In this document: piece by piece, positions 8,954-63,700 of the stretch | Position numbering within the stretch: position 1 is the stretch's first letter | How the letters are laid out: each line of letters opens with the position of its first letter | NCBI RefSeq assembly: GCF_022662335.1 | Contig: NZ_JAKNQJ010000014.1 | Span: 1-64,000, forward strand | Length of the DNA: 64,000 nt | Source: Sphingomonas sp. CROZ-RG-20F-R02-07 | GTDB lineage: Bacteria > Pseudomonadota > Alphaproteobacteria > Sphingomonadales > Sphingomonadaceae | Direction: 5' to 3' | The notes under the pieces: model-generated | The model's input: only the letters and a program-made list of their open reading frames with translations | What the model was told of the DNA's origin: nothing | Databases searched by the model: none | Made by a program: the position numbers and the translations under genes

Positions 8954-10294
8954 TCATTCCGGCAGGACGATCCGCGCGACCAGACCCGGCCGATTGTCCG
9001 CCAGTTCGAAGCCACCGCCATGCAATCGCGCGACGGCTTCGATCAACGCCATGCCCAGGCCCGCGCCCGGAGTCGATCGCGCGCTGTCGAGCCGGACGAA
9101 GCGCTTCAACGCGCGCGCACGATCCGCCGCGGCGATGCCGGGCCCGCGATCCTCGACCTGGATCGCGATGCCCCGCGCGATCCGTACGATGCGGAGCGTC
9201 ACCTGCCCGCCCGCGGACGCGTGCTTCAGCGCGTTGTCGACCAGGTTCGTGATCGCCTGGCTCAGCAACTCCCGATGAAGCGGCAGCGGCGCGGGGCGAT
9301 CGTCGATCGCGGTCACGAAATCGAACCCCGCCTCTTCGGCCACCGGCTCGTAGAGTTCGGCGATCTCCTCCACCAGATCGGCAGGCGCGACCATCGTGAA
9401 GCGGTTGCGCGACGCCGACTCGGACCGGCTGATCTCGATCACCATCGTCAGCATTCGCATGACGAGGTCGGTCTCGACCAGCAGTCCGCCGAGCGCCGCC
9501 TCGCGCAAGGCCGGATCGGAAATCAGCACCGCCTGTTCGGTCTTGGTGCGCAGCCGCGCGAGCGGCGATCGCAGATCGTGTGCCAGGCTGTCGGTCACCA
9601 CGCGCAATTCAGCCATCACGCCTTCCAGCTTGCCCAGCATCGCGTTCAACCGCACCGACAGTCGATCGAAGGCGTCGCCCCGGCCGCCGACGGTCGCCAC
9701 GCGGCGCGACAGATCGCCCTCGCGCACCGCCTCCACCACTGCGGCGATCCGGTCGAGCCGCCCCGCCACGTAACGCGCCATCACGAGCCCCGCGATCACC
9801 CCGAAGGCCAGCGACAACAGCACCGCCAGCGCCAGCGCCCGCTCGATCGCCTGCTGCTCCGCCGCCACCAGATCGAGGCTGCGCCCGGTCAGCAGCCAGC
9901 GTTCGCCGATCGGATAAAGCGTATAGCCGACATCGGTCGTCCGCGGCGTGCCGTCGATATCCGCCACGCGGAACGCAGTCGGCACCCAAGGCACGCTGAT
10001 GACGTCAGGAGCGAAGCCGGCGACGCGGCGACCGTCGCGATCGATCACCGCCAGCAGCAGCGTATGGTCGCCCGGCGCGCGCGCCTTCTTGATCGCATTG
10101 GTGACGGCCGCGAGGCCGCCCGCGGCGAACACCGCGCGCATCGCATCGGATTGCTCGGTCGTCTCGCGGCGGACCGTGTCGATCGCCACGTCATGCGTCT
10201 GGCGCCAGACGAATCCCATGACGACCAGATTCGACAGCAAGGCGAGCGCGAACCCGAGCAGCGCGATCCGCGCCGTGACCGACAGGCCAATCAC
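8954..10294 (-). CDS. two-component sensor histidine kinase (HAMP-HisKA-HATPase)
   Basis: A 446-residue membrane sensor kinase. Two membrane segments (about 7-29 and 152-174) flank a periplasmic sensor region of about 120 residues. A HAMP linker follows (about 175-228). The HisKA phosphoacceptor is H239 in SLAHDLRSPLARLR. The ATPase domain has N350/N354 (N box), D382 in VEDRGPGIA (G1) and GAGLGMALIEAV (G2). Its ATG overlaps the regulator stop by 4 bp (ATGA), so the pair is translationally coupled. The stimulus cannot be read from the sequence. The pair lies between the adk terminator and the alpha operon promoter. Confidence 0.93.
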   Translation of the reverse strand: MIGLSVTARIALLGFALALLSNLVVMGFVWRQTHDVAIDTVRRETTEQSDAMRAVFAAGGLAAVTNAIKKARAPGDHTLLLAVIDRDGRRVAGFAPDVISVPWVPTAFRVADIDGTPRTTDVGYTLYPIGERWLLTGRSLDLVAAEQQAIERALALAVLLSLAFGVIAGLVMARYVAGRLDRIAAVVEAVREGDLSRRVATVGGRGDAFDRLSVRLNAMLGKLEGVMAELRVVTDSLAHDLRSPLARLRTKTEQAVLISDPALREAALGGLLVETDLVMRMLTMVIEISRSESASRNRFTMVAPADLVEEIAELYEPVAEEAGFDFVTAIDDRPAPLPLHRELLSQAITNLVDNALKHASAGGQVTLRIVRIARGIAIQVEDRGPGIAAADRARALKRFVRLDSARSTPGAGLGMALIEAVARLHGGGFELADNRPGLVARIVLPE

Positions 10295-10983
10295 CCCTCG
10301 GGCGAGAGCCGGTAACCCGCACCGCGCACCGTGTGCAGGATCGGCGTCGGAAAGCCTTCTTCCAGCTTGCGCCGCAGCCGGCCGATATGCACGTCGACCA
10401 CGTTAGAGCCCGGATCGAAGTGATAGTTCCAGATTTTTTCGAGCATCATCGTCCGCGTGACGACCTGGCCCGCATGGCGTGCGAGAAATTCGAGCAGGTT
10501 GAATTCGCGTGCGCCCAGCGGGATGGTGCGGCCAGCGCGAACGACGCTGCGCGCGAGCAGGTCGATCTCCAGATCCCCCACGGACAGCCGGGTTTTCTGC
10601 GGCTCGGCGGCGGAGCGATCGGAGCGGCGCACCAGCGCCTCGATCCGGGCCGACAGTTCGGCAAAGGAGAAGGGCTTGCAGAGATAATCGTCGGCGCCCG
10701 CCTTCAACCCGTCGACCCGGTCGTCGACGCTGGCGAGCGCGGACAGGATCAAGGTCGGCGTCGGAATGCCCGCCGCGCGGATCGCGCTGACCATCGAGAG
10801 CCCGTCTAAGCCTGGCAGCATGCGGTCGGCGATCACGAGATCGAAGATGCCCTCGCTCGCGAGGAACAGGCCGTCGCGCCCATCACGACAGCTCTCGACC
10901 GAATAACCCGCCTCGCTGAGCCCCTTGGTCAGATAGGCCGAGGTCGACACATCGTCCTCGACGATCAGGATCTTGCGGGTCAC
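10291..10983 (-). CDS. OmpR/PhoB-family response regulator
   Basis: A 230-residue regulator. The receiver domain (1-120) has the acidic pair E9/D10/D11, phosphoacceptor D53 in LVIADRMLPG, a Thr/Ser switch near residue 81 and K103 in CKPFSFAEL. The C-terminal winged helix (about 132-228) shows LGAREFNLLEFLARHAGQVV and VVDVHIGRLRRKLE. It would bind DNA as a phosphorylated dimer. It is encoded before its kinase with a 4-bp overlap. It starts 43 bp downstream of the adk terminator hairpin, so it needs either read-through or a promoter overlapping that region. Target genes are not evident. Confidence 0.93.
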   Translation of the reverse strand: MTRKILIVEDDVSTSAYLTKGLSEAGYSVESCRDGRDGLFLASEGIFDLVIADRMLPGLDGLSMVSAIRAAGIPTPTLILSALASVDDRVDGLKAGADDYLCKPFSFAELSARIEALVRRSDRSAAEPQKTRLSVGDLEIDLLARSVVRAGRTIPLGAREFNLLEFLARHAGQVVTRTMMLEKIWNYHFDPGSNVVDVHIGRLRRKLEEGFPTPILHTVRGAGYRLSPEG

Positions 10984-30199: not shown

Positions 30200-30276
30200 A
30201 GGGGTGTAGCTCAGTTGGTTAGAGCGTCGGTCTCCAAAACCGAAGGCCCTCGGTTCGAGTCCGAGCTCCCCTGCCA
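30200..30276 (+). tRNA. tRNA-Trp (CCA)
   Basis: A full 77-base cloverleaf including an encoded CCA end. The D arm is GCTC/GAGC. The anticodon stem TCGGT/ACCGA carries loop CTCCAAA with anticodon CCA at 30234-30236. The T arm is CTCGG/CCGAG with loop TTCGAGT. The acceptor stem AGGGGTG/CTCCCCT has one T-T mismatch at the sixth pair. It lies just upstream of secE, a common place for tRNA-Trp in proteobacteria. Confidence 0.93.
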
Positions 30277-30439: not shown

Positions 30440-30637
30440 GTGGCGAAGACGACACCCCTCGAATTCATCCAGCAGGTTCGCGCCGAAACCGCGAAGGTCG
30501 TCTGGCCGACGCGGCGCGAGACGGTGATGACCGGCGTGATGGTTGTCGTGATGACGACGATCCTGGCCGTGTTCTTCCTCGGTGTGGACACGATCTTCGA
30601 AGCGATCGTCGCCGCGCTGCTCAAGCTGGCCCAGTAG
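30440..30637 (+). CDS. secE: preprotein translocase subunit SecE
   Basis: SecE, 65 residues with a single membrane segment, the short form typical of most bacteria. FIQQVRAETAKVVWPTRRET is the conserved amphipathic helix, followed by a membrane segment (about 31-50). It clamps SecY. The start is GTG at 30440. It begins the secE-nusG-rplK-rplA cluster, after tRNA-Trp. Confidence 0.95.
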   Translation: MAKTTPLEFIQQVRAETAKVVWPTRRETVMTGVMVVVMTTILAVFFLGVDTIFEAIVAALLKLAQ

Positions 30638-32513: not shown

Positions 32514-32543
32514 GCCGCGACGATCGACAGGATCGACGAATGA

Positions 32544-32570
32544 GGGCCGGGAGCGATCCCGGCCCTTTTT
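32544..32570 (+). terminator. intrinsic terminator after rplA
   Basis: GGGCCGGGA/TCCCGGCCC, a 9-bp stem with a 4-base loop, is followed by TTTTT, 30 bp after the rplA stop. It separates rplKA from the following genes. Confidence 0.88.
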
Positions 32571-32641
32571 CGTAAGTTACGCCGCCACCTTCACGCAAAA
32601 TTAGCCACTGCGATCTACCGGTCTCCGCAGGGAGACGTGTG

Positions 32642-33229
32642 ATGGCATCGGCAGCACAGCGATCGGGCAAGCCGCGGCGCGGCTGGCGCAGCATCGTACC
32701 CGCGCGCGACGGCGCCACGATCATCGAATTCGCGCTGGTGGTGACACCCTTTTTCGCGGTTCTGATGGCCATTCTCCAGACCAGCCTGATCTATTTCAGC
32801 CAGGAGGCGCTCGAGACGAGCGTCGAAGCCGCCGCACGCAGCGTCGTCACCGGAAAGGCGCAGGCCGCCGACGCGACCGGTTCCAGCAGCGGCATGAGCC
32901 CAGCGCAGCTCCAGACCCGGTTCCGCAACGCCGCATGCGCGACGCTGCCCGGCTATATGTCGTGCGCCAAGCTGCTGGTTGACGTGCGCAGCGCGACCAG
33001 CTGGAACGCCATGGACACCAGTATGCCGACGATCACGTTCGATGCGAACGGCAACCCCAACAACACGCTGAGCTACAGCCTCGGCAGCCAGGGCGCCGTC
33101 GTGCTCGTGCGGCTGATGTATCTCTGGCCGATCCAGGCGGCGCCGATGCAGCTGGGGCTCGTCAACGTGGGCAACGGGCAGCGACTGATCGTCGCCACCT
33201 CGGTCGCCAAGACGGAGAGCTATTCGTGA
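32642..33229 (+). CDS. TadE-family pseudopilin-like protein
   Basis: A 195-residue TadE-like protein. The motif RDGATIIEFALVVTPFFAVL (about 22-41) with Glu29 is the TadE/TadG N-terminal membrane segment; minor pseudopilins of Flp/Tad pili are made this way. The rest (55-195) is a periplasmic domain with two Cys. A GGAGA lies 6 bases before the ATG. It overlaps the next gene by 4 bp (GTGA). No Tad ATPase, prepilin peptidase or Flp pilin gene is in the window, so the assembly machinery must be elsewhere if the proteins are used in a pilus. Confidence 0.82.
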   Translation: MASAAQRSGKPRRGWRSIVPARDGATIIEFALVVTPFFAVLMAILQTSLIYFSQEALETSVEAAARSVVTGKAQAADATGSSSGMSPAQLQTRFRNAACATLPGYMSCAKLLVDVRSATSWNAMDTSMPTITFDANGNPNNTLSYSLGSQGAVVLVRLMYLWPIQAAPMQLGLVNVGNGQRLIVATSVAKTESYS

Positions 33230-33759
33230 CGTCGCGCAAGCTCGCCACAGACACGCGCGGCCTCGCGCTCATCGAATTCGCGATCGTCCTGCCGATCCTG
33301 CTGACGCTTTATCTCGGTGGGTTCCAGCTGGGCGATGGAATCGCATGCAGCCGCAAGATCACCATCGCAACGCGCGCGATCGCCGATCTGATCGCACAGA
33401 ACCAGTCGGGCTCGACGACCGCCAGCGAAGTGGACAGCAACCTGTCCGCCGCGACGCAGGTGCTCGCCCCCTACGCGGCCAGCAATGCGGTCATCCGGAT
33501 CACCGAGGTCGGCACCGACTATAATCTGAAGACCACGGTGCAATGGAGCCGTGCCGCGAATGGCGCCGCCTACAAACCGGGCGCGGTCGCCACGATCCCG
33601 CTCGCGATGCGCATACCGGGCACGTACTTCCTGTTCGCCGAAACATCCTATGCCTACACGCCGTCGGTCAATTTCGGTTTCGTCAACGCCATGAACCTGT
33701 CGGATTCGCTGTACATGCTGCCGCGCAATTCGAACAGCATCACTTGCACGGATTGCTGA
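33226..33759 (+). CDS. second TadE/TadG-family pseudopilin-like protein
   Basis: A 177-residue protein with the same N-terminal pattern (TRGLALIEFAIVLPILLTLY), then a periplasmic domain ending in CTDC. The start is GTG at 33226, inside the previous stop, so it is translationally coupled. It is a distinct member of the family and not a duplicate of the first. It is followed 2 bp later by the vWA protein gene. Confidence 0.82.
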   Translation: MTSRKLATDTRGLALIEFAIVLPILLTLYLGGFQLGDGIACSRKITIATRAIADLIAQNQSGSTTASEVDSNLSAATQVLAPYAASNAVIRITEVGTDYNLKTTVQWSRAANGAAYKPGAVATIPLAMRIPGTYFLFAETSYAYTPSVNFGFVNAMNLSDSLYMLPRNSNSITCTDC

Positions 33760-33761
33760 AG

Positions 33762-35090
33762 ATGACGATCATGCGCCCGCTCCTCCATCTGGCGAAGCGG
33801 CTGCGGCACGATCGCCGCGGCAACGTCTTCATGATCTTCGCCTTCGCGCTCATCCCGCTGACGTTCGCCACGGGCATGGGCATCGATTACGCCCGCGCGA
33901 TGAAATCGCAGACCAAGCTCAACGCGGTCGCCGATGCCGCCGCGCTGGTGGCGGTCAGCAAGACGGTGATGAGCTTGGATGACAACAGCGCCGCGGGTTA
34001 CGCCACCCAGATGTTCCAGATCCAGAGCCAGAGCGTTCTCAACAACGGCTCGGTCAAGCTGACAAGCCTGTCGACCAGCGCGCCGACGGATTCGACCGGC
34101 CGTCGCACCGCGACCGTCAGCTATGTCGCCACGTCGTCGAACATCTTCGCCAATATCCTGGGCTTGCCGTTGCTGACCATCCACGGCACCTCCCAGACCA
34201 CCAACGCCACCGCGCCCAACATCGATTTCTACATGCTGCTCGACGTATCAGGATCGATGGCGCTTCCCACCACGACGGCCGGGCTGAGTAAGGTGGGTGC
34301 GAGCAACGGCAACGGATGCCAGTTCGCCTGCCATTCGACGAACGATCTGAAGGGGAAGGATGCGAACGGCAACATGCAGGATCTGTATGGCGTGGCCAAA
34401 TCCTACGGCCTCACACTGCGCATCGACGACGAAGGCACCGCCGTCTCAAAGCTGACGGCGGATGCGCAGAGCACGTCGAGCAAAAACGGCGCGAACTACC
34501 GGATGGCGATCCATTCGTTTCATGGCGCCGGCGGATTTTCGATGATCCAGTCGCTCACGGCCAATCTGTCCTTGGCCGCGACCACGACTACCAACCTGAA
34601 GCCGAGCAATTACTACAGCAACGGTTGCCCGACCCAAGCCTGCAAGAACACCGATGTCGGCTATAACGATCAGGACACGGGCAGCAGCGACGCCTTCGAC
34701 CAGATGAACAAAGTCATCACCCCGTCGCCGGGAACGGGGCTGAACGGCGCTCAACCCCAAGCCATCATGTTCCTCATCACGGACGGCATGCGTGACGAGT
34801 CCCGCCCCGGCGGCCGTCCGGAAATCGGGTTCGACACTGCCAAGTGCACCACGATCAAGAGCCGGGGAATTCGGATCGCGGTTCTCTATACCGAATATCT
34901 TCCCCAGGCGCTGGCCAACGACAGCTGGTCGCAGGCCAACGTCGCGCCCTATCTCAACCAGATCGAACCCGCGCTTCAGGCCTGCGCGTCGCCCGGACTC
35001 TATACCAAGGTGTCGACCGATCAGGATATCTACACCGCGCTCGACACGCTGTTCCAGAACGCCGTCGCGACCGCCCGAATTTCGGGGTGA
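33762..35090 (+). CDS. TadG-like protein with von Willebrand factor A domain
   Basis: A 442-residue protein. An N-terminal membrane segment (about 22-42, NVFMIFAFALIPLTFATGMG) with the following DYARAMKSQTKLNAVADAAA is typical of TadG (Flp pilus-assembly TadG-like). The vWA domain begins near 154, with the MIDAS motif DVSGS (D161, S163, S165) and a later Asp in FLITDG (D341). It would bind a divalent metal and probably a protein partner in the envelope. There are several Cys in the insertion (186-295). It is the last gene of the three-gene Tad set; the next gene is convergent, 25 bp away. Confidence 0.85.
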   Translation: MTIMRPLLHLAKRLRHDRRGNVFMIFAFALIPLTFATGMGIDYARAMKSQTKLNAVADAAALVAVSKTVMSLDDNSAAGYATQMFQIQSQSVLNNGSVKLTSLSTSAPTDSTGRRTATVSYVATSSNIFANILGLPLLTIHGTSQTTNATAPNIDFYMLLDVSGSMALPTTTAGLSKVGASNGNGCQFACHSTNDLKGKDANGNMQDLYGVAKSYGLTLRIDDEGTAVSKLTADAQSTSSKNGANYRMAIHSFHGAGGFSMIQSLTANLSLAATTTTNLKPSNYYSNGCPTQACKNTDVGYNDQDTGSSDAFDQMNKVITPSPGTGLNGAQPQAIMFLITDGMRDESRPGGRPEIGFDTAKCTTIKSRGIRIAVLYTEYLPQALANDSWSQANVAPYLNQIEPALQACASPGLYTKVSTDQDIYTALDTLFQNAVATARISG

Positions 35091-35115
35091 TGCGGCGCCG
35101 GGCAGCCGCCTCCAA

Positions 35116-36213
35116 TCAGCGCTCGAGCAAGACCGCGTGGGAGCGCGCGGCAACCGCATCCTGCATCCGCGGCGGGACATCGAGCCAGAAGGGCGCGAGC
35201 TTGGACGAATCCACGCGCTCCACGCCCACCGCGAATGCCTGCACCGTCTGGCCGAGGCCCCCGTGTCCCGCCGCATAGATCACGTTCAACGCGGCAAGCG
35301 GGATGAACATGGGGCGACCGTTCGCGCTCAGCGCCTCGATCGCGTCGCGCGGCAGCGCCATGACGATCCGAAGCCGACGCTCCTCGCCTGGGGCCAGGGC
35401 GAAGGTCGGCGCGGCCGGACGTGCGATCGGCTCGGCCGCAAACCCGCTCACCGCCGCCTCTTGCCCCGAGGATGCACTGAGCAACTGGGCCCTCAGGCGG
35501 ATATCGGTGGCGGGAGCGTCGCCCCGGTTCGTCACGGTCACCTCGCAGTCGACGGTCGCGCTCAGCATGTTGAGCCCCGCGCGCGTCGGCCGCAACGCAA
35601 GCGCGAGCCTGCCGCGCGGGACGATCGGCGTGAGCGGCGCCACGGCCACCGTATCCGAGCCGCCCTCACCGGTCTCCGCCTTCGCCCCGCGGCGCCGCGA
35701 CCACAGCCCCGCCCCGCCGAGCGCAACCGCCAGCGCGCCGACACCGGCCAGCCATGGCCATGGCCATGCCACCTGCTGCGGTGACGCAGGCGGTAGCGTG
35801 ATGCCCGGCGTCGGCGTCGGCATTGGCGTCGGCGTCGCGACGGCAGCAGGCTGTGCTGCCGCGGCGGACGACGGCGTCGGAACCGGTGCCGGCGTGGACG
35901 TCGGGGCGACATCGGGGGTCGGGGTGGCACGCGGCGTGGGCGTGGCACGGGGGGATGGCGTGGGCTTGGGCGTGGCGGTCGCCCGCCGCTGAGGCGTTGG
36001 CGTGATCGCCGGCAGCGACAAGGGCGATGCGAGCGGCACCGGCGTCGCATAGGGCGTCGGGCTCGCCTGGGGTTGGGACGGCGTGAGACTGAAATTGCCG
36101 AGATTGGGTATGGTCCGCACGGCGTCCTGCGCGCCGGCCCGTCCGCCAAGTGCCGCCAACGCTACGGCGAGGATTGGCGCGGCCGATACCGCACGGCGCC
36201 TCTCGAATGTCAT
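35116..36213 (-). CDS. Pro/Thr-rich single-pass membrane protein, unknown function
   Basis: A 365-residue protein. A probable signal peptide (1-28, cut near AGAQ) is followed by a Thr/Pro-rich repeat region (about 41-146, many TPTP and ATPTP units). A membrane segment follows (about 151-170, WPWPWLAGVGALAVALGGAG), then a basic stop-transfer RRR. The C-terminal domain (195-365) has a beta-sandwich look (VTVTNRGDAPATDIRLRAQL), like CARDB/DUF11 folds. I know no function. The start is ATG at 36213. It is convergent with the vWA gene and divergent from rpoB. Confidence 0.72.
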   Translation of the reverse strand: MTFERRRAVSAAPILAVALAALGGRAGAQDAVRTIPNLGNFSLTPSQPQASPTPYATPVPLASPLSLPAITPTPQRRATATPKPTPSPRATPTPRATPTPDVAPTSTPAPVPTPSSAAAAQPAAVATPTPMPTPTPGITLPPASPQQVAWPWPWLAGVGALAVALGGAGLWSRRRGAKAETGEGGSDTVAVAPLTPIVPRGRLALALRPTRAGLNMLSATVDCEVTVTNRGDAPATDIRLRAQLLSASSGQEAAVSGFAAEPIARPAAPTFALAPGEERRLRIVMALPRDAIEALSANGRPMFIPLAALNVIYAAGHGGLGQTVQAFAVGVERVDSSKLAPFWLDVPPRMQDAVAARSHAVLLER

Positions 36214-36339
36214 GATCGCGAATTCCCTGATGATCGTTTCTGCCGCCACGGCGCGACCAGCGGTGCAAGCCGGGTTGCGACGAGCCGCGCCGTGGCGGCG
36301 GTGAAGCACGCACGGGGCGCTACCAGCAGATGCCCGCGT

Positions 36340-36368
36340 TTGACAGCCGGCAACACGGCACCTATATC
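36340..36368 (+). promoter_or_regulatory. consensus-like sigma70 promoter of rpoB
   Basis: TTGACA (36340-36345) and TATATC (36363-36368) are exactly 17 bases apart. They lie in the 343-bp gap (36214-36556) before rpoB, giving a leader of about 180 bases. It makes rpoBC independent of the rplKA cluster. Confidence 0.78.
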
Positions 36369-36556
36369 GCGGGTTCGCCACAGCATCCGGGAAATGAGCG
36401 GCCGTCGCGCAGCCGATCGATCGAATGGGATGCCGGGGTTACCGGACGCCGAACGCCGCCGCATCCCGTATGCGAGCGGCTTTTCGGCGTCTTCGCACGC
36501 CCCGCCCCGGAGGTCTCCGGGCAGAGATTAGACGGCTGACGAGGCAAAACGATCCT

Positions 36557-40735
<4,179 letters not shown>

Positions 40736-40808: not shown

Positions 40809-45098
<4,290 letters not shown>

Positions 45099-45130
45099 TC
45101 CGCCGGGCACTGCGGTGCCGGGATCTAGAA

Positions 45131-45167
45131 GCCGCCGCCCGGGATGCCGGGCGGCGGCTTTTTGTTT
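45131..45167 (+). terminator. intrinsic terminator after rpoC
   Basis: A 12-bp perfect stem (GCCGCCGCCCGG with CCGGGCGGCGGC) and a 4-base loop are followed by TTTTTGTTT, 32 bp after the rpoC stop. Confidence 0.93.
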
Positions 45168-60782: not shown

Positions 60783-63700
60783 TCAGAACGAAGCAATCAG
60801 GCTGCCCATCAGGCTGTGATACGTCGTCCGCTTTCCAAACTCTCCGCCGTAGCTGATCCGAGCCGAGAAGCCGTGGCCGAGCGAACCGGTGAGGTTGGCA
60901 TCCACCGTCCCGGTGTCGCGGTCGAGGAACGCGCGCGTGACAAACGGACTCACGTTCGTCGGCGCGCCGACGAAGACGGCGCTGACGCCGACATCGTCGA
61001 ACCGGTGCATGTAGCCGCCCCGCACCGCCAGCCGCATCGGCGTGCCGTATACCGAGAAGGCATGCGACACATCGAGGCTGGGACGGACGAAGGCCAGACC
61101 TTCGACCCCGACGTCACCGACAGCAAGCGACAGCGGACCGGCACCCTGTTCGACGATCCGCTGCTGATCCCAATAGGCGTAACCGCCCTCGACACCCGGG
61201 CGCACCGTCACCGCGCCGAGATCGAAGCGGTAGCCGACGTCGCCGCCGAGCTGACCGAAATCGAACCGTTGCTGTGCAGAGGCCACCGTGGGAGCCGCCG
61301 CGATCGCAGCCGGCGCGGCTACCGGTCGCGTGGTGGAAACGCTGGCGTGACCGAGCGTGCCGTACACCGCGACATCGAGCGCCTGGCCGCGATAGCCGAG
61401 CGAGAGGCCGAGCTGGTAGCGGTCGCCCTTGCCCCGGCCACCGCCGTCCTCGATCGCGGCCTCGACGGTTTCGTAGGACCCACCGACGCCGAAATGCAAT
61501 CCGCCGCCACCTAGCACATGTTCGATACCGCCCTGAATATGCGTGCCCATGTCACGATAAGCGGCATTGTCGAACGTCGTACTCTGGCGGAAGCGGTCCC
61601 CACCGGCCGAGAGCCACATGCAACCGCCCCGCGCATCGAGGATGCCGCTGCTTGCGCAATCGGACAGCCGCCCTGCGAACCGCTCGCCACTGTAGCTGGC
61701 CGAGGCGATCTGGTCCGCGTAGACCTCGCCGCCGAAGCTGTCGTAGATCCGACCCAGCGTCGCCGTGTCGCGCGTGTAGAACAGTTGCGTGACGACCGGG
61801 GCCAGCACGTCGCTCGACCCGGCCGCCTGGATGCGGTTGACGTAATCGCCCACCGCGGTCCGATTGCGGTTGAGCGGACGGCCGACACCGGCGAAATCGA
61901 CATTGGCGCGCAGCAACAACTGCTGACCCGCGGTTTCCAGCCCGAACGCCGCGACGGCCGAGGTCGGCACGTCGAGCGCCAGACCCCCGTTGGTGATGCC
62001 GCCTGCGGCATCGACCAGCACGCTGGTCCGGTTGCCGGCCTGGATCGAGGGGACGTTTGCGACGACCGTCGACACGCGGCCGGCCAGCCGCGCGCTCCCG
62101 GTCGCATTCACCCGATCGGTGAACTGCGCCTGGCGTGCCGGTGCGAAGTCGAGATCGGTGACGTAGCTGCCGCTCGTCGACTGATTGAGGCTGCCGCCCA
62201 GCGCGACGGTCTGGAGCCGACCGACGTCGCCCGGCGTTAACCGCCCGGCGTTGTCGAGCACGCCCGCGGCACCCAGCGCGACGGTGTCGAAGGGCACGAA
62301 GGTCGCGCCCACGGCGTTGTTGAAGCGATTGACCTCGCCCGCCACGGCGCCGCCAGTTCCGACCAGACGGACGTTGCCATAAACCAGGCCGGCGTTGTTC
62401 ACCGTATCGTTGCCGCTGGTGCCGGTGATCGCCAGATTCGATACCGCCGACACCGATCCGGCGATTGCCAGCACGTTGTTTGCGCCACCGTCAAAAGCCA
62501 CGCCGACACCGCTGCCGCTGCCGCCACGGACCGTTCCGGTCGAGCCGACGGTGATGTCGCCCGCTCCATTCGCGCCCACGCTCTGCGCCAGCACCGCGGT
62601 CGATCCTGCGCCGGTGGCGAACACGTCGCCGCCGAGGTTCAGCGTCACCGCGCCGCCGCGCCCCTGGCCACCAGCGGTGCCGGCGAACAACCCATCGACG
62701 AAGCCGCCACCGCCACCGATCGACTGGGCGACCACGCCATAGGCGCCGTCACCGGTCACGACTACGTCGCCGGTCTGGGTGAAGGCGACCGCGCCGCCAT
62801 CGCCGCTGTTGCCGCTGCGCAGCGCAAGCCCCGCGAAGCCGGCACCCAATGCGGCACCGCCGCCTCCACCGATCGACTGGAGCAACACCCCGTGCGAACG
62901 CACGCCGGTGGTGCGGATCAGACCGGCGTTGGTGATCGTCACGCTGCCCCCGGATCCACTGACGCCCGCCGCGCCGCCAAGCGACGTTGCCGCCGTCCCG
63001 ATATCGGCTAGGCGCACGTCGCCGCCACCGCCACCGATGGATTGGGCGAACAGGCCGGCGCTATAATCGCCGTTGGTCTGCACGCCGGCATAGGTCCCGG
63101 CGATCGCCCCGCCGTCGGCGCCGCTGCCACCGTTGCCGCCGAGCGCCACCGTGGCGATCGAACCGAGCGAAGCGCCGCTCGCCAGCCGTACGCCGGCCGA
63201 GCCGCCGCCGCCGCCGATCGACTGGAGGATCGCACCCGGCGCGATCAGCCCTTGGGTGGCGATCAAGCCGCGCTGCGTCACGGAGACGACGCCGCCCGGC
63301 GAGCTTGCGGTGCCGGTGCCGCCAAGAGCGATGTCGATCGCTCCCGGCGTCGCCTTCGTCGTGTCGAGCAACGCGCTGGTCCGGCCGCCGCCACCGCCGA
63401 TCGACTGGACGAGCTGGCCCGGCGTATCGCTGCCGATCGCCGTCACCTGCCCGGTCAGCGCGATCACCGCCGCGGCGCCCGCATTGTTGCTGCCGCCGTT
63501 ACCGCCCTGTCGGATCGTCACGTCGGATGCCAATTGCGGCGTGGATGTCGCCATCGCCCGCAATACCGCCGATTGCAGTACCGGCGCCCCCGCCGACGCG
63601 GTGCTGGCGGTCTGAGCCGACGAGTCGCTCGCCTTGGGCATGAAGGCCAGGTTGAGATAGGCGGTGCCGCCGCCGCCACCGATCGACTGCACGCCCGAAC

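Follow-up and report, generated by a model that had tools for sequence, protein, structure and literature searches.

A predicted promoter and structured leader RNA upstream of rpoBC in Sphingomonadaceae, a family in which the rplJL-rpoBC link is mostly lost

Gene order at the rplA-rpoB junction

The stretch analysed was the first 64,000 nucleotides (nt) of contig NZ_JAKNQJ010000014.1 of Sphingomonas sp. CROZ-RG-20F-R02-07 (assembly GCF_022662335.1; hereafter the window, whose numbering is used for all coordinates unless a locus is named), and the subject was the region upstream of the RNA polymerase genes rpoBC, which is preceded by a predicted promoter and a structured leader RNA and not by the ribosomal protein genes rplJ and rplL (rplJL). 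The window holds, in order, tRNA-Trp (30200-30276), secE (30440-30637), nusG (3' end 31185), rplK for L11 (31385..31816, plus strand; Pfam PF00298/PF03946), rplA for L1 (31821..32513, plus strand; PF00687), an intrinsic terminator, three Tad-type genes, a reversed gene for a Pro/Thr-rich membrane protein, rpoB (36557..40735, plus strand, start ATG 36557) and rpoC. The terminator 3' of rplA (32542..32570, plus strand) is a GC-rich hairpin with an 11-bp stem, the loop GCGA and a U-run, folding at z -6.0 against shuffles. On the plus strand behind it lie a TadE-type gene (32639..33229, alternative ATG 32642; PF07811, E 3.5e-9), a second TadE-type, TadF-like gene that overlaps the first by 4 nt (33226..33759; PF07811, E 1.4e-6) and a TadG-like gene (33762..35090; PF13400, E 4.1e-9), in which we take a von Willebrand-type motif to be present; all three Pfam matches were above cut-off. 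The reversed gene (35116..36213, minus strand) gave no Pfam or NCBIfam match. Between it and rpoB were placed the sigma70-like promoter (36340..36368, plus strand; TTGACA, 17 nt, TATATC) and the leader (36367..36491, plus strand; approximately 125 nt, the span of the covariance-model match). A simple promoter and terminator scan of the window missed both the terminator of rplA and the promoter of rpoB.

An earlier note on this DNA had read from the letters a break in the usual order rplK-rplA-rplJ-rplL-rpoB-rpoC, with a terminator after rplA and three Tad pseudopilin genes plus a Pro/Thr-rich gene in the gap; this description held, save that the third gene is TadG-like and not a pseudopilin gene. 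Its expectation that rplJ and rplL lie elsewhere was also borne out: neither was found in the window, and each had a single match in the genome, the two standing together near 238 kb of contig C34. In this genome rplJL are thus located elsewhere, not directly upstream of rpoB on the same strand, and their customary operon connection with rpoBC is gone.

Linkage of rplJL and rpoBC across the class

Linkage was called classical when rplJ lay upstream of rpoB on the same strand with a gap of at most 2 kb, gaps being measured between the L10 and rpoB domain matches and not between genes. The sampled family and genus were taken to be Sphingomonadaceae and Sphingomonas from the named records that fall inside the rpoB tree. 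Of the 127 pairs from the rest of the class, 113 were classical, 11 were on different contigs and 3 were at 2-8 kb (127 of 134 genomes, those left out being three of the own family and four in which one of the two genes was missing), so that the order of the window is not one common to all alphaproteobacteria. Within the order, pairs were counted in the best 93 of 247 genomes, 55 of them from the own family and 38 from other families; among the matches listed, all 38 pairs of the other families of Sphingomonadales were classical and 4 of the 55 family pairs were. The other family pairs listed comprised 23 on the same strand at 2-10 kb, 21 with rplJ upstream on the opposite strand, one with it downstream on the opposite strand, 3 far apart and 3 on different contigs. 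The genus gave one classical pair in 60 (60 of 61 genomes, one being without an L10 match), with 35 pairs at 2-13 kb, 4 on opposite strands, 10 more than 20 kb apart and 10 on different contigs. Pairs on different contigs (3 in the family, 10 in the genus, 11 in the class) were counted as non-classical and may be assembly breaks; for genome G389 the rpoB match adjoining rplJ was used, and for G291 one of two copies. Gene content of the gap differs among family genomes, and rplL stood directly before rpoB in 4 of the 53 fetched family loci (L006-L058), namely L017, L019, L022 and L056. The loosening of the rplJL-rpoBC link is therefore family-wide and not special to this genome.

Several arrangements were seen beside these counts. 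Five close relatives (loci L083-L087 and L074-L078) keep secE-nusG-rplKA-rplJL together with rpoBC apart, and in two genomes (G262 and G292) rpoBC lie 111-112 kb from rplJL. In 17 family loci rplJL run divergently upstream of rpoB (L024, L028-L030, L032, L034-L036, L038-L041, L046, L048, L052, L054, L055), an arrangement in which two promoters and two leaders may point in opposite directions. Reversed genes weakly similar to the Pro/Thr-rich gene precede rpoB in several Sphingomonas genomes and adjoin rplJL in others (tblastn identity 28-57%, partly over low-complexity sequence).

Predicted promoter and leader RNA

In aligned upstream regions, TTGACA-N17-TATATC was found approximately 196-244 nt before rpoB in most compared genus sequences, with a conserved stretch directly 3' of it. 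A promoter-like pattern just upstream of the leader was present at 70 of 88 loci versus 52 of 8800 random windows, and a sigma70-like promoter of its own is predicted for rpoBC. The leader model begins within the -10 box, and transcription is accordingly expected to begin a few nucleotides downstream of that point.

The leader comprises three paired elements, all on the plus strand. Helix P1 (36383..36433, with 36383-36388 pairing with 36428-36433) is supported by covariation and encloses a conserved internal loop of the type CGGGAAAUGA / AUCGAAUNG. Hairpin P2 (36395..36419, with 36395-36402 pairing with 36412-36419), also covarying, closes the loop CGUCGCGCA at 36403-36411 and keeps 7 of 8 pairs in the window. 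The terminator-like hairpin P3 (36445..36491) follows the form GACGC ... GCNGC ... GCNGC-UUUU ... GCGUC, and four or more consecutive Us were found in it in 59 of 66 leaders. Covariation was measured on 25 sequences aligned by MAFFT without fitting to the structure (A1), and on alignments of 66 sequences (A3) and of held-out sequences (A5), both fitted to the covariance model. On A1, RNAalifold returned 25 pairs in P1, P2 and P3, 15 of them with double-sided changes; 95.3% of cells were paired versus 32-48% with partners slid by 1-3 columns, and 68 double-change cells were counted versus 20.2 in shuffles. In the fitted alignments, double changes were seen in 25/25 pairs of A3, and in the held-out set 95.1% of cells paired, with 182 double-change cells versus 45.7 in shuffles. 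The secondary structure is thus conserved with compensatory changes. P1/P2 and P3 form together in most of 12 folded leaders. A leader peptide was also considered; an ATG in the 5' internal-loop region is present in only 40/66 sequences. No Rfam 15 match was obtained at the window's leader or at those of 20 relatives at E <= 1.

Distribution of the leader and held-out test

Two covariance models were used, R1 from 25 sequences and R2, a widened form from the 66 sequences of A3. The window's leader scored 113.7 bits with R1 (E 8e-21) and 100.6 bits with R2, the window being among the training sequences. A scan with R1 covered 3.04 Mb, made up of rpoB neighbourhoods and other loci; all its matches at E <= 0.05 lay directly upstream of rpoB in Sphingomonadaceae/Sphingomonadales records. 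Once the model had been widened to R2, a leader match preceded rpoB in 88 of 89 family loci, a set that includes near-duplicates (L081 and L095, for example, seem to be the same genome). The distance from leader end to rpoB start was 11-133 nt (median 70), so that the element occupies the 5' region of one gene, on the same strand, across species; leader-bearing records include Sphingomonas abaci, Stakelama sediminis, Sphingopyxis panaciterrae, Sphingosinicella terrae, Novosphingobium clariflavum and Sphingorhabdus rigui. At E <= 0.05 no match was found in seven loci from other families of the order, nor in another 54 named rpoB loci, almost all of them from alphaproteobacteria.

The models were then applied to 80 held-out rpoB upstream regions, 20 each from the genus, the family outside the genus, the order outside the family and the class outside the order. 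R2 matched 40/40 family regions (E <= 6e-4) and 0/40 controls at E <= 0.05 (best 0.32); R1 matched 31/40 and 0/40 at the same threshold. A held-out genome may be of the same species as a named training record, and two held-out loci (L204 and L205) are identical over the match.

Probable order of events from the rpoB tree

An rpoB protein tree of 68 rows was built by a quick method and drawn midpoint-rooted, six of 74 chosen rows having been left out as too short. The only family locus without a leader match, L019 (genome G045), keeps the classical order, as the outgroups do, and branches beside the other 60 family rows with support 99; the seven outgroup rows are set off by a branch with full support. 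Every sampled family locus above the L019 branch, the deepest in the family, has a leader match (three of the matches being weak). Leader and close rplL-rpoB junction occur together in L017, L022 and L056, and, judged by the gap, in G179 and G173; no examined family locus was both split and without a leader match. Since the leaderless locus is classical and deepest-branching, the tree suggests that the leader arose at or before the break-up. The simplest reading suggested is that leader and promoter came first and separation later; as an alternative, leader gain and operon separation may have had a common cause.

The relocated rplJL genes

At the C34 locus (L002), rplJ spans 9735-10256 and rplL 10321-10698, with a terminator-like hairpin and tRNA-Leu behind them. 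Upstream (L002:4894-9459) lie a ComM-type fragment (C-terminal Mg-chelatase) and genes for TniQ, TniB and a Mu-type transposase, which end a few hundred bases before rplJ; a mobile element might have helped rplJL to move. An exchange of rplJL with the usual site of the Tad trio (see below) was considered and rejected, the moved genes adjoining the ComM fragment and Tni genes and not trmFO or pyruvate dehydrogenase genes.

A separate pattern was found upstream of rplJ. In its looser form it was present at 58 of 66 family loci versus 19 of 5000 random windows, at 3 of 7 loci from other families of the order and at 5 of 50 other loci; a stricter form of this rplJ pattern was present at 47 of 123. 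It occurs in linked and unlinked family genomes, including the moved copy here, and as it was kept with the moved genes, control by L10/L12 probably travelled with rplJL, as judged from this pattern. The Rfam L10 leader model matched neither at the rplJ locus nor at the rpoB leader.

The Tad genes and other features of the window

TadE matches were found in 61 of 61 sampled genus genomes; the present genome has two, both in the window. Among the 150 listed genus TadE matches, inspected by eye, none but the window's lay within 50 kb of rpoB on its contig. In three relatives (G272, G257 and G270) the trio, 36-50% identical to the window's, occupies another shared site, between a trmFO-type gene and pyruvate dehydrogenase genes, from which it follows that the window's trio was moved or replaced in this lineage. 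The search for cpaF and flp genes that the earlier note had proposed yielded a TadA-like ATPase on C34 near 41 kb, with no Tad neighbours (best model TIGR03819, 344 bits, below the cut-off of 373), and, next to accA on C1 near 199 kb, two Flp pilin matches. The parts searched for are therefore not grouped as a Tad cluster but spread over the window, C34 and C1 (TadB, TadC and the secretin were not searched). A search for named relatives of the TadG protein returned 29 pattern matches, none of them a relative.

The earlier note had placed the Tad genes in the position of rplJL. Their insertion as the cause of the split was rejected: the link is loose family-wide, and relatives without Tad matches at the junction are split too, by other genes, by inversion of rplJL or by departure of rpoBC itself. 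Five close relatives (G272, G292, G262, G295 and G259) have rplKA and rplJL together with rpoBC elsewhere, and no Tad match was found in the ten stretches compared. The Tad trio is a passenger in the gap.

Two further elements of the window lie outside this junction. At 45038-45165, downstream of rpoC, a weak small-RNA family match (25.1 bits versus a gathering score of 40) and a weak R2 match (17.3 bits, E 0.11) coincide on what is probably a terminator hairpin. At 63030-63124, ARAGORN called a tRNA-Tyr with the odd anticodon ATA; no Rfam tRNA match was obtained there at E <= 1, so the call is probably false.

Interpretation

The amount of RNA polymerase and its control are an old and partly open question, studied mostly where rpoBC share an operon with rplJL. 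We favour, with somewhat better than even confidence, the reading that rpoBC form an independent unit in Sphingomonadaceae and that a cis-acting attenuator leader, gained first, relaxed the linkage to rplJL. Transcription would start at the sigma70-like promoter and run into the folded leader of approximately 125 nt, in which P1, the conserved internal loop and P2 with its conserved loop would form a sensor-like part, followed by the terminator-like P3 ending approximately 70 nt before the rpoB start. By analogy, a sensor-like domain, a terminator-like hairpin and this distance to the start resemble attenuation leaders, and the leader is most likely a cis-acting attenuator giving rpoBC control of its own. 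P1-P2 would be bound by a protein, most probably RNA polymerase or one of its associated factors, and this would set read-through at P3, by which beta/beta' output could be tuned without a shared operon. The leader would have arisen close to the root of the family, at a time when rplJL and rpoBC were still neighbours; with a start and control for rpoBC alone, selection to keep rplJL adjacent would have relaxed, and the neighbourhood could then have broken up in many ways. In the present genome rplJL would have left entirely with their own upstream leader pattern, the Tad trio now standing between rplA and rpoB. What was observed are the gene orders, the presence, covariation and distribution of the leader and the place of the promoter-like sequence; the transcription start, termination at P3, the ligand, the regulatory effect and the order of causes are what we infer from them. 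The suggestion in the earlier note, that loss of the link may change the coordination of ribosome and polymerase synthesis, is upheld in so far as the operon link is lost, and gains indirect support from the promoter-like sequence and the leader.

Several results count against this reading. The promoter pattern is absent at 18 of 88 loci, and three of the 88 leader matches are weak (L057, E 0.063; L104, 0.05; L036, 0.024). Five held-out members of one other genus (L194, L195, L199, L200 and L201) match over only 71-75 nt, and part of the leader structure may be reduced there. Folding of six single sequences gave z -0.8 to -3.9 (the window, -1.5), and as such folds only sometimes beat shuffles, the case for structure is carried by covariation. 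At P3, 7 of 66 leaders have no four Us in a row, and the U-run lies inside an extended stem, unlike that of a plain terminator. No consistent antiterminator appeared when 12 leaders were folded in full and again minus their 3' part; this speaks against a two-state switch of the simple kind and in favour of a bound factor or of RNA processing. Because the leader was gained only once on the tree, no statistical test can separate cause from effect.

A second reading is that gene order drifted, by insertion and rearrangement, without regulatory meaning, the RNA being a constitutive element of the 5' untranslated region (acting on mRNA stability, RNase III processing or translation) and not a switch. 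The content of the gap varies freely in the family, the extended P3 stem could be a processing site, and excerpts of PMC8046335 report that in Gammaproteobacteria and Bacilli genes were inserted into this operon cluster and its parts then separated, and that rplJL have moved out of the rpoBC operon in Haemophilus influenzae Rd. Drift nevertheless has to accommodate a leader matched in all sampled family loci above the deepest branch, weakly in three, and the covariation of P1 and P2 around conserved loop letters throughout the family, by which the fold itself appears to be under selection and a role beyond stability may be presumed; we hold this explanation possible and rather unlikely. That the inverted repeats work at the DNA level, as an operator bound by a transcription factor, and have no role as RNA, we consider very improbable: P2 comes close to a palindrome and follows shortly after the promoter-like sequence, but G-U pairs are frequent (UG at the base of P2 in 22/65 and 17/39 sequences, for example) and P1 spans approximately 45 nt around the conserved loop, both of which fit RNA pairing better than a DNA palindrome. 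An invasion of the rplA-rpoB gap by Tad genes that expelled rplJL in this lineage has in its favour the coincidence of the trio and the missing rplJL in this genome; with the link loose in the whole family, the trio at another shared site in three relatives and rpoBC apart in five close relatives without Tad matches in the stretches compared, we give it hardly any credence.

Within the favoured reading of an attenuator-controlled, independent rpoBC unit, a bolder version would place the leader in a new RNA family whose ligand is RNA polymerase itself, with P1-P2 binding the transcribing or free enzyme and so deciding read-through at P3; we regard this as a long shot, for which a put-like or inverse-attenuator loop is the comparison. 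If true, the leader would act on beta/beta' synthesis as a direct RNA thermostat, and its gain would have let one bacterial family dismantle a most conserved operon. Sphingomonadaceae offer a natural experiment, with the link lost in most sampled genomes and a compact leader RNA, specific to the family, at a place to which control could have moved. The leader is short and suited to reporters, and its gain on one branch of the tree makes the order of control first and break-up afterwards directly testable.

Comparison with known systems

The Tad trio, the TadA-like ATPase and the two Flp pilin matches are shared with the Tad (Flp) pilus system, from which the present case differs in that the parts checked are scattered and the trio stands before rpoB. 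The Lacto-rpoB RNA motif sits upstream of rpoB. An excerpt of PMC2864571 lists it (RF01709) for Lactobacillales as a candidate structured RNA named for that gene. The kind of element and the gene context thus seem alike; the differences are the Lactobacillales listing and the lack of a match of the RF01709 model at the window's leader or 20 relatives (E <= 1), the folds themselves not having been compared. The rplJL leader offers a model of how such an element could act: according to the part of PMC4538822 consulted, it is the target of L10(L12)4, with translational repression in E. coli and attenuation in Bacillus subtilis, and like the rpoB leader it is a structured leader before a gene of this operon, with a terminator in B. 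subtilis. It differs in belonging to rplJL, before which Sphingomonadaceae carry their separate pattern, and no motif common to that pattern and the rpoB leader was seen in a comparison by eye only.

A search of open-licence papers returned nothing on gene order, an rpoB leader or start sites for Sphingomonas, Zymomonas or Novosphingobium. Separation of rplJL from rpoBC is known in kind (PMC8046335); a Sphingomonadaceae-wide rpoBC leader is absent from Rfam 15 and did not emerge from the open-licence papers searched. In the portions of PMC8046335 consulted, break-up in Gammaproteobacteria and Bacilli took place by loss or insertion at the same junction, and the relocation of rplJL concerned a single species, Haemophilus influenzae Rd; in Sphingomonadaceae the loosening is family-wide and goes together with a leader that, among the loci searched, was found before rpoBC in this family alone.

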